A stretch of DNA of 64,000 bases from Desulfitobacterium dehalogenans ATCC 51507 (GTDB taxonomy: Bacteria > Bacillota > Desulfitobacteriia > Desulfitobacteriales > Desulfitobacteriaceae): NCBI RefSeq assembly GCF_000243155.2, contig NC_018017.1:620001-684000 (forward strand), given 5' to 3'. Shown here one piece after another: positions 4,277-15,191 of this stretch. Each line of letters starts with the position of its first letter. Position 1 is the first letter of the stretch. The position numbers were made by a program, and so were the translations under genes. The notes under the pieces were generated by a model. That model was not told the origin of the DNA. It saw nothing but the letters and a program-made list of their open reading frames with translations, and did not search any database.

Positions 4277-4588
4277 ATGGGTACATTTTTAATTTTTATC
4301 GCGGGTGTATTATTCTTAGCTGCTATTCTCTTTATTAAACCAAGGGCAAAAAAGGCCGAAATGTGGAAAACCGTGCTTAATTGGGTTTTATTTGTCCTTT
4401 GGTACGGTGTGACCTGGATGGGGGTTTCCTATATCTACCTTAATGCTAAGGCCGGTCATGTTAAGGCCACAAGTACCGCAGTGTTTGTGTTTTTAGGGAT
4501 ATCAGTAGTACTAGGTTTTATCTTAGCCCGTTTATTAGGATTTATTAACATGAAGAAAACAAATAGTAGAAATGCAGTGGAAGCTTAA
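4277..4588 (+). CDS. cprB: CprB, putative membrane anchor of the dehalogenase
   Basis: A 103-residue protein with three predicted membrane helices (about 2-20, 31-55, 66-90) and the family-typical WYGVTWMGVSYIY segment. RdhB/CprB proteins are thought to tether the dehalogenase to the outer face of the membrane. A strong GGGAGGTGG ribosome site precedes ATG 4277. The gene lies 12 nt upstream of cprA and is co-transcribed from the dehalobox promoter. Confidence 0.93.
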   Translation: MGTFLIFIAGVLFLAAILFIKPRAKKAEMWKTVLNWVLFVLWYGVTWMGVSYIYLNAKAGHVKATSTAVFVFLGISVVLGFILARLLGFINMKKTNSRNAVEA

Positions 4589-4600
4589 GGGGAGAAAAGA

Positions 4601-5944
4601 ATGGAAAACAATGAACAAAGGCAGCAAACAGGCATGAACCGCAGAAGCTTTCTGAAAGTTGGGGCTGCAGCAACTACCATGGGAGTCATCGGAGCGATCA
4701 AGGCTCCGGCCAAGGTCGCCAATGCCGCTGAAACAATGAACTATGTCCCGGGACCCACCAATGCACGCTCTAAACTTCGCCCGGTACATGATTTTGCAGG
4801 AGCAAAAGTTCGCTTTGTTGAGAACAACGACGAGTGGCTGGGCACTACCAAAATCATTTCCAAGGTAAAAAAGACTTCCGAAGCCGATGCCGGCTTTATG
4901 CAAGCGGTCAGAGGTTTATACGGTCCTGATCCCCAAAGAGGTTTCTTCCAATTTATCGCTAAGCATCCTTTTGGAGGAACTATCAGCTGGGCGCGTAACC
5001 TCATAGCTGCGGAGGATGTGGTAGATGGTGATGCCGAACCGACGAAGACTCCCATCCCGGACCCGGAGCAAATGTCTCAGCATATCAGAGACTGCTGCTA
5101 TTTCTTACGGGCGGACGAAGTAGGGATCGGCAAGATGCCGGAGTATGGCTATTATACTCATCATGTTTCCGATACAGTCGGACTCATGAGCAAACCTGTT
5201 GAAGAATGTGTGACACCGGTTACCAAAATTTATCCTAACGTTATCGTGGTTATGATCGATCAGGGTATTGAGACCATGTGGGCATCCACAGGATACGACG
5301 GTATCAGTGGAGCGATGTCTATGCAAAGTTACTTTACCAGTGGCTGCATTGCCGTCATTATGGCCAAATATATCAGAACCCTTGGTTACAATGCGCGAGC
5401 TCATCACGCTAAAAACTACGAGGCCATCATGCCTGTCTGCATCATGGCGGCAGGTCTGGGAGAATTGTCACGTACGGGAGACTGCGCGATCCATCCCCGT
5501 TTGGGATACCGCCATAAAGTAGCCGCAGTAACGACCGATTTGCCCCTTGCTCCTGATAAACCCATTGATTTCGGTCTTCTGGACTTCTGCCGGGTATGCA
5601 AAAAATGCGCCGACAATTGTCCAAACGACGCGATTACCTTTGATGAAGATCCCATTGAATATAACGGATACCTGCGTTGGAACAGTGACTTTAAGAAATG
5701 CACAGAGTTCCGTACCACCAATGAAGAAGGGTCCTCTTGCGGTACCTGCCTGAAAGTCTGCCCCTGGAACTCCAAGGAAGATTCCTGGTTCCATAAAGCA
5801 GGGGTTTGGGTTGGCAGCAAGGGTGAAGCTGCTTCCACCTTCCTTAAATCCATTGATGATATCTTTGGCTATGGTACAGAGACCATTGAAAAATACAAAT
5901 GGTGGCTGGAGTGGCCTGAAAAGTATCCCTTGAAACCCATGTAA
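4601..5944 (+). CDS. cprA: CprA, corrinoid/FeS ortho-chlorophenol reductive dehalogenase
   Basis: A 447-residue catalytic subunit that reductively removes ortho chlorine from chlorophenols at the outer membrane face. The N-terminus has a Tat motif (NRRSFLK, residues 13-19), a hydrophobic stretch and a cleavage site after ANA, giving a mature protein from about residue 43. Two [4Fe-4S] motifs near the C-terminus are intact: C330, C333, C336, C340 and C367, C380, C383, C387. The middle forms the base-off corrinoid-binding nitroreductase-like domain; no DxHxxG motif is needed in this family. Length, signal and motifs fit characterised CprA, so I expect 3-chloro-4-hydroxyphenylacetate-type substrates; substrate range cannot be proven from sequence. 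Confidence 0.96.
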
Positions 5945-6040: not shown

Positions 6041-7228
6041 ATGAGAAACATGAGAAAATATATAACACTCATTGCAGTGGTCATCCTTGTTGTGACAGCG
6101 GTATTTGCGAAACATGCCGATAAAATGGATGCCAATCTGGTCGAGGGATACTACCGGGAACTGGTTTCAGATGCTGCCGGCTTTGAATCCATCAATGACC
6201 GGACGGCAAAAGCAATCGGGCAAGATGGCTCTGTTAGCGCATATCTGGGAATAGATAGCAATATTGGTTATGGCGGCCCTCTTCTCGTGGGTACAGTCCT
6301 TTCACCAGATGGAAAGTTTAAGGATATCGTAATTTTAGAACATAAGGAAACCCCTTCCTATATTAATAAAATTACCAAGGCCGGATTTTTCCGTCAGTTC
6401 GAAAAAAAGCAAGTCGGAGATTCATTGGCTTTCAATTATGATGTCGACGGAGTGTCCGGGGCAACCCTTTCCACCCGTGCCATAGCCTCAAGTGTCCAAA
6501 GTGTGGCTCATACCATTGCCTTGGAAGAGTTAAAGATTACGCCCAAGAAAGCTGAGGTAAAGTGGAACATCGGCCTACATGAAATTGTGATCGCATTACT
6601 CTTTGTCTTATCCTATTTTATGCCTAAATTTAAACAGTTAGCAAGATTTAGATTTCCGTTTTTGCTGCTTAGTGTTGTCATTTTAGGGTTCTGGCTTAAC
6701 AGATCATTGTCCATGGGACAGATCAGTGCTCTGTTTCTGGGGTACTTTCCGGTACCCGGCGAAAACCTTTTGTGGTATATCATTTTGATCGGTGCTTTCG
6801 CGCCGGCTTTAGTTACCGGCAAAAATCTATACTGCACTTATGTATGTCCTTTCTGCGGGTTACAGGAAACCACTCATAAAATAAGCCGAATCAATCTTTC
6901 GATGGGAAAATATATGAAGTGGATTCGTTTAGGTAAAGAAGTCATCTTATTCCTGGTTCTTTTCCTGGCTTTCCTGGCCCTTAATCCTTCTGTATCCAGT
7001 TTTGAACCCTTTGGAACGATTTTCGGGTTAAATGGTTCAAGCTATCAGTGGTATCTGCTTTTTGTCATCTTGCTCTCCAGTTTCTTCATTCGCCGGTTTT
7101 GGTGCCATGCCTTTTGCCCGGTCGGCACCATTCTTGACAAAGCGGCAGGACTTTCCCGTAAAGTTAAAAACAGTGTAACGGGTATCATCACTACGAAAAA
7201 AACGGTGGGTGTTAAGCATGGAAAATAA
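6041..7228 (+). CDS. cprC: CprC, NosR/NirI-like membrane flavo-FeS protein
   Basis: A 395-residue membrane protein. Residues 1-25 form a signal anchor. About 60-165 form an extracytoplasmic FMN-binding domain ending in SGATLST (139-145), where FMN is attached covalently to Thr. Further membrane helices lie around 180-195, 205-220, 243-260, 298-315 and 337-352. Cys motifs C265-x3-C269P with C272, and C355-x3-C359P, face the membrane border. RdhC proteins were first thought to be regulators and are now usually seen as redox or maturation partners of the dehalogenase. A hairpin separates it from cprA. Its 3' end overlaps a small gene at 7218. Confidence 0.92.
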   Translation: MRNMRKYITLIAVVILVVTAVFAKHADKMDANLVEGYYRELVSDAAGFESINDRTAKAIGQDGSVSAYLGIDSNIGYGGPLLVGTVLSPDGKFKDIVILEHKETPSYINKITKAGFFRQFEKKQVGDSLAFNYDVDGVSGATLSTRAIASSVQSVAHTIALEELKITPKKAEVKWNIGLHEIVIALLFVLSYFMPKFKQLARFRFPFLLLSVVILGFWLNRSLSMGQISALFLGYFPVPGENLLWYIILIGAFAPALVTGKNLYCTYVCPFCGLQETTHKISRINLSMGKYMKWIRLGKEVILFLVLFLAFLALNPSVSSFEPFGTIFGLNGSSYQWYLLFVILLSSFFIRRFWCHAFCPVGTILDKAAGLSRKVKNSVTGIITTKKTVGVKHGK

Positions 7229-7328
7229 AGCAACAAAATTAGACAAAACGGCTCTGTCGATTCTGGCTTCCTATGGTTTAATCGCGATCTTTGTTTTTCT
7301 GGTGATACTAGAGGCATGGAATTCCTAA
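7218..7328 (+). CDS. Small single-helix membrane protein between cprC and cprD
   Basis: ATG 7218 opens a 36-residue frame ending TAA 7326-7328. It overlaps the end of cprC by 11 nt and stops about 23 nt before cprD. Residues 1-12 are polar and charged; residues 13-32 (LSILASYGLIAIFVFLVILE) form one membrane helix, then AWNS ends the protein. Overlap with cprC suggests translational coupling and co-expression. The size and topology fit a small membrane-complex subunit, for example a partner of CprC or CprB, but no family is recognised. Such genes are easily missed by length cut-offs. Confidence 0.6.
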   Translation: MENKATKLDKTALSILASYGLIAIFVFLVILEAWNS

Positions 7329-7339
7329 TGCTGAGTTAA

Positions 7340-8962
<1,623 letters not shown>

Positions 8963-14682: not shown

Positions 14683-14727
14683 TACTCCGCACTATCGATG
14701 TAAGATAGTCGGAGTACCTTTTTTTAT
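14683..14727. terminator. Terminator between hydA and the YopX-like gene
   Basis: TACTCCG-c-ACTATC pairs with GATAGT-CGGAGTA (one bulge) and is followed on the plus strand by CC and a T run. It serves hydA and overlaps the last bases of the convergent gene. Confidence 0.8.
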
Positions 14728-15191
14728 TCCAGCAGCTCTGCGTGATCAAACCAATTTCCTATGACCCGGGGGCTTACAACTTGGCATAATTTCTCAAGAT
14801 AGTGTTCTTTCTTATCGACCACAATCCATTCCTTGGATCCCTGGCAAAATATAATCCGTCCGGTTTGTGAACTGGAGGGGAGGTCCGAATTTTCTTTGGA
14901 GATAAAAGAGATGATGTCGTTGCAGTAGATCTTTTTACGAGGTTCCTCATGGTCCCAAAACCCTGTAAACGCCATAATCTCTATGCCATAACAAGTCACC
15001 ACATCTTCTTCCCAATCATGTTCATAATGGTTGGACAGACAATTCAGCCGATAGTGTATGCCGTCTTCTGTAATATGAACGGGATAAACAGTATGTCCTA
15101 TGTTCTGCAAAGATCTGGGCAGCCATAAATCCTGATTATAGATCAGGTTCTTCTCTCTTTTGTCGTAGGCACGAAACTCCGGTATACTCAT
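14724..15191 (-). CDS. YopX-family phage-type protein
   Basis: A 155-residue protein beginning with FRAYDKREKNLIYN, the typical opening of YopX proteins, which are usually found in prophages. It is rich in aromatic residues, with a compact beta fold expected. No other phage gene is near it: hydA lies on one side and the sdh leader on the other. It looks like a domesticated or stranded phage gene. Function is unknown for the family. Confidence 0.65.
   Translation of the reverse strand: MSIPEFRAYDKREKNLIYNQDLWLPRSLQNIGHTVYPVHITEDGIHYRLNCLSNHYEHDWEEDVVTCYGIEIMAFTGFWDHEEPRKKIYCNDIISFISKENSDLPSSSQTGRIIFCQGSKEWIVVDKKEHYLEKLCQVVSPRVIGNWFDHAELLE

Follow-up and report, generated by a model that had tools for sequence, protein, structure and literature searches.

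A candidate detached seventh transmembrane helix of CprC encoded between cprC and cprD in Desulfitobacterium dehalogenans

At the end of cprC in the cpr cluster of Desulfitobacterium dehalogenans lies a short open reading frame (ORF) that probably encodes a membrane protein of 36 residues, corresponding to a seventh transmembrane helix detached from CprC. RdhC proteins such as PceC and CprC are membrane flavoproteins whose function is described as still unknown in the available part of PMC10624902. In the accessible text of PMC5928378 the RdhC family (CprC, PceC, TmrC and VcrC) consists of one polypeptide with six helices; here, a small ORF accompanies it, some relatives have the helix as their own C-terminus, and the seventh helix is proposed to be a second polypeptide. 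We hold it slightly better than even that the RdhC of many organohalide-respiring Bacillota is made of two polypeptides, and that an overlooked one-helix gene supplies a seventh helix needed for folding or function.

The reading frame at the end of cprC

The window, i.e. the whole stretch of 64,000 nucleotides that was analysed, is part of a genome of 4,321,753 bases and holds a cpr cluster with the gene order T K Z E B A C D. The gene names follow common usage and the gene order cited in PMC3306737. The features needed here are as follows:

4277 to 4588, + strand: cprB, small membrane anchor of CprA, 103 residues (role taken from papers)
4601 to 5944, + strand: cprA, catalytic subunit of the reductive dehalogenase, with Tat signal and Fe-S motifs (Pfam TAT_signal and Fer4 families)
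6041 to 7228, + strand: cprC (RdhC), FMN-binding domain and membrane core with two CX3CP motifs (Pfam FMN_bind, Fer4_5)
7204 to 7209, + strand: G-rich GGTGGG within cprC, possible ribosome-binding site for the ATG at 7218
7218 to 7228, + strand: 11 nt shared by cprC and the small ORF, which lies in the +1 frame of cprC
7218 to 7328, + strand: single-helix ORF of 36 amino acids, proposed detached seventh transmembrane helix or small subunit of CprC
7346 to 8962, + strand: cprD, GroEL-like chaperonin, the next gene (Pfam Cpn60_TCP1)

CprC has the FMN_bind and Fer4_5 domains, and the cysteines and the proline of both CX3CP motifs are invariant in the alignment, in agreement with the family definition in the available sections of PMC5928378. 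The product of cprB matched no Pfam family above the cut-off and, as an anchor of 103 residues, is another kind of protein than the small-ORF product. Elsewhere in the window, a YopX-family (Pfam) protein, presumably phage-associated, is encoded at 14724-15191 on the - strand, alone between two long + strand operons.

The small ORF runs from the ATG at 7218 to the TAA stop codon at 7326-7328 and encodes MENKATKLDKTALSILASYGLIAIFVFLVILEAWNS; an alternative in-frame GTG at 7209 would give a product of 39 residues. It takes up 100 of the 117 nt between cprC and cprD and ends 17 nt before the cprD start (ATG at 7346, with 7352 as the other possible start). An earlier sequence-only reading had placed a 36-residue single-helix frame here, with an 11-nt overlap with cprC and filling most of the cprC-cprD gap, and its position is confirmed. 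The product has a single hydrophobic stretch (Kyte-Doolittle mean 2.84, 17-residue window) and matched no family in Pfam or NCBIfam. The Shine-Dalgarno consensus is matched over only 4 nt, and relatives carry a similar G-rich element at the position equivalent to GGTGGG. Because cprC is transcribed together with cprD (PMC5928378, accessible part), the small ORF should lie on the cprC-cprD transcript. Overall, the 36-codon frame is very probably a real gene.

Conservation as split and fused forms

A search of 73 genomes of the order for CprC-like genes (E 1e-45 or better) returned 68 genes in 22 genomes. The CprC clade groups the window gene with seven relatives at 61-71% identity, and at all eight loci a one-helix ORF of 34-65 codons, read in the +1 frame, shares its first 8-20 nt with the end of rdhC and is followed by a GroEL-like gene. 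The sequence-only reading had proposed a small membrane protein linked to cprC, to be refuted if the frame were not conserved in related cpr clusters; the frame is kept at 8/8 loci, and this part of the proposal holds. A profile of the seven relatives ranks the window ORF first (29.6 bits, E 2e-8), the best of 749 decoys reaching 13.3 bits. The nearest relative (L022, on the same contig as G049:C85 and counted once) ends in FLVVLEAWNS, compared with FLVILEAWNS in the window; between these two ORFs dN/dS is 0.40 over 32 codons, with synonymous sites in the clade nearly saturated. A direct search with the 36 residues did not reach the relatives: among 45 genomes of the family the ORF's own copy was the only significant match, and matches in 12 other genomes had E values of 0.1 or above and were taken as chance. 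Even the G003 ORF was missed, being too diverged for this method.

A wider survey of RdhC/NosR-like genes distinguished split forms (the helix in an ORF of its own where rdhC ends), fused forms (the extra helix attached to RdhC) and genes with neither. The 78 assessable genes comprise 51 split, 19 fused and 8 neither, by criteria that were fixed after the first cases had been seen and with a heavy weighting towards Dehalobacter-like paralogues, many of them near-copies. As a control, a comparable ORF follows 8 of 269 non-RdhC genes of at least 150 aa from the window and the fetched loci, a set that replaced a first one still holding some RdhC genes. Mechanical criteria assigned the 68 genes in the order to 42 split, 19 fused and 7 neither. 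Outside the order there were seven matches, one of which was cut by a contig end and left out, and the six assessable genes gave five split and one neither; four further genes (at a looser threshold, or found only there) were all split. Two assignments were changed by eye and cancel in the totals: G052:C10:35576 went from split to neither because its close copy in G053 has no such ORF, and G017 went from neither to split on account of a 41-aa ORF at +73. Correspondingly, one of the 51 split ORFs begins 73 nt downstream of rdhC. Five genes close to the CprC clade, at 50-54% identity, are fused (two in G066 and one each in G063, G065 and G067), and searches around G154, G108 and G103 yielded no new split or fused cases.

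The survey also brought up variations on either form. Several linkers before the fused helix (L005, L006, L039, L044 and L079) hold cysteine clusters, e.g. CPGQCAGC, CNHCDNASC and CSEHQPCESC, and in the 68-aa split ORFs at L053, L036 and L037 the helix is followed by a long acidic tail, well conserved among the three genomes. A plasmid search gave two Persicobacter records only (L114, 4001-7162, and L115, 4001-7171, the ORFs beginning upstream). There, the RdhC/NosR-like part is the N-terminus of a single ORF of 1211 or 1223 residues whose C-terminal part reads by eye like a TonB-dependent receptor, with a signal-peptide-like stretch where the two parts meet.

Small ORFs also accompany pceC. 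One protein (L111, genome G051) contains all four PceC reference peptides given in PMC8905343, as compared by eye. This gene, its near-identical counterpart in G004 (L107) and the paralogues L112 and L113 each have a one-helix ORF of 47-67 codons in the -1 frame; it begins 63-72 nt within rdhC and ends ahead of a gene reading like the trigger-factor-like pceT. For pceC of the pceABCT operon, the small ORF has 47 codons and starts 72 nt within pceC.

Codon comparisons, in which the sequence pairs are not independent, gave a pooled pN of 0.10 and pS of 0.55 for the four PceC-type ORFs outside the overlap, a pooled pN of 0.14 versus a pS of 0.39 for the non-overlapping codons of MKSKLS-type peptides, and no clear purifying signal in the MRNLGS group (pS 0.08, pN 0.06). 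To judge from these values, purifying selection acts on the small-ORF product in several of the groups.

The split peptides resemble the fused tails. Three fused-tail profiles place 23 of the 51 split peptides (profile G2), 25 (G3) and 5 (G1) above all 749 decoys, and four of the five found with G1 belong to the CprC clade. The window ORF itself scores 0.7, -0.8 and 0.7 bits and is not among the above-decoy peptides; its link to the fused tails would be an indirect one, through its clade relatives. The two states also meet in a pair of relatives: the helix of G055 is a separate ORF starting directly after the RdhC stop codon, and that of its relative G050 is fused, the junctions reading TTGAATG and TTG-ATG, respectively, i.e. 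a difference of about one base that removes the stop. A sequencing error in either genome may be responsible, and the likeness of the helices holds regardless. On a tree of the RdhC core with 77 rows (fragment row G064 left out), the split, fused and neither states require at least eight changes, and four changes of the fused label are forced by starred branches; the tree is a quick one, with no bootstrap and several long branches.

Partner of the helix and alternative readings

According to the available part of PMC5928378, RdhC is predicted to be a six-helix protein whose FMN domain, placed between helices 1 and 2, lies outside, so the RdhC C-terminus, where a seventh helix would begin, should lie inside. 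Positive residues are commoner before the helix in 46 of the 51 split peptides, equal in five and commoner after it in none, a bias matching a cytoplasmic RdhC C-terminus. The mechanism that we propose begins with coupled translation of the peptide from its own start within the end of cprC. Once inserted, the peptide would have its Lys-containing N-terminus on the cytoplasmic side and its Trp-containing C-terminus (EAWNS) on the outside, and would pack on the six-helix CprC core as a small subunit, at the site taken by the fused C-terminal helix of relatives. We infer both the production of the peptide and its binding to CprC. The helix may complete the membrane redox module or, on the outer face, support the FMN domain.

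The choice of CprC as partner has to be weighed against a coding frame whose product belongs to the CprAB reductase or another respiratory complex. The ORF does sit in a cpr cluster, and small one-helix subunits of respiratory complexes exist. However, the helix follows or is fused to RdhC-like proteins, and for 14 of 68 rows, 11 fused and two split among them, the fetched stretch showed no cprA relative, many of these stretches extending only 1500 bases upstream. Moreover, the solved PceA2B2 structure is a menaquinol-oxidising unit of PceA and PceB without PceC (PMC10624902, available part). On the strength of these fused forms and of this structure, a subunit of RdhC is the better reading, and a subunit of RdhAB is unlikely. 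The sequence-only reading had suggested that the peptide could be a subunit overlooked in the dehalogenase electron chain, and this is upheld in one part: it is probably a subunit, with RdhC (CprC) as the partner indicated, and membership of the electron chain was not borne out.

Frameshifting, a leader function and chance were likewise weighed and ranked below a detached helix of CprC. The small frame could act as a leader or translational coupler and so set how strongly cprD is translated, the peptide itself having no function, and its place in the cprC-cprD gap and its overlap with cprC would suit such a device. We consider this quite improbable: in 40 cases, the genes that come after split ORFs sort into 13 groups (a few of these 'genes' may be chance ORFs), are often unrelated and sometimes lie on the opposite strand, which argues that the small ORF goes with rdhC and not with the next gene. 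Purifying selection on the small protein, seen in several groups, and the occurrence of the helix fused to RdhC also speak against a mere coupler. Programmed frameshifting, which would join RdhC and the small frame into a seven-helix protein, seems a shade less probable still. Its attraction lies in the constant +1 frame of the CprC clade (8/8) and in the -1 frame of the PceC and L003 types, where the overlaps are longer, but common descent also yields a fixed frame. Further points against it are Shine-Dalgarno matches of at least 5 nt before 27 of 41 small ORFs, compared with 17% of shuffled stretches, and the strong site GGAGGT before the 47-codon pceC-type ORFs. Least probable of all is a chance ORF without a product; short frames are common (186 ORFs of at least 30 aa overlap the first 20 kb), yet conservation of place, frame and sequence across the whole CprC clade stands well apart from the background of the control genes.

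For the preferred reading, a detached helix of CprC, structural modelling was carried out on a fused relative (L089) whose aligned part shares 54% identity with CprC. The AlphaFold2 model has a mean pLDDT of 90.9 and a pTM of 0.85, and the C-terminal helix at residues 410-430 reaches a pLDDT of about 95, the linker ahead of it having values of 54-67. For a hydrophobic helix, such a high pLDDT hints only weakly at packing in the predicted structure.

Known systems and significance

Small subunits of the CydX and KdpF type have about 30-40 residues and one helix and are encoded beside a large membrane partner. By description, the ORF product is like them in size, helix and placement; it differs in that its kind of helix is fused in some genes and split in others. 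The resemblance to RdhB/PceB is that of a small membrane protein of rdh clusters. Unlike the 36-aa product with its one hydrophobic stretch, which lacks the features of these anchors, RdhB/PceB has three helices and about 100 aa and anchors RdhA (accessible part of PMC10624902). In D. hafniense DCB-2 a short predicted locus between rdhC5 and rdhD5, ACL18782, was set aside without coding evidence (PMC9888536, Fig. 7, source available in part); it is like the window ORF in its place in an rdhC-rdhD gap. In the literature searched, of which parts were accessible and most subscription papers lay outside, no description of a seventh RdhC helix or of a small ORF between pceC and pceT was found.

If the proposal is true, models of RdhC topology and attempts at RdhC production need to include the small subunit, RdhC studies with expression from rdhC alone would have missed a subunit, and the genes of pceABCT would number five. 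The natural occurrence of fused and split forms makes the claim easy to test.

RnfG and NqrC have an FMN domain like that of RdhC, a likeness that is silent on the seventh helix. When the RdhC model was compared with the PDB by sequence and fold, clear matches were obtained for the FMN domain only (residues 1-165), with none as clear for the membrane half by either route. At two loci, L024 and L073, the gene after the split ORF resembles by eye an ApbE-type FMN transferase, a neighbour that would fit covalent FMN in the RdhC-like protein.
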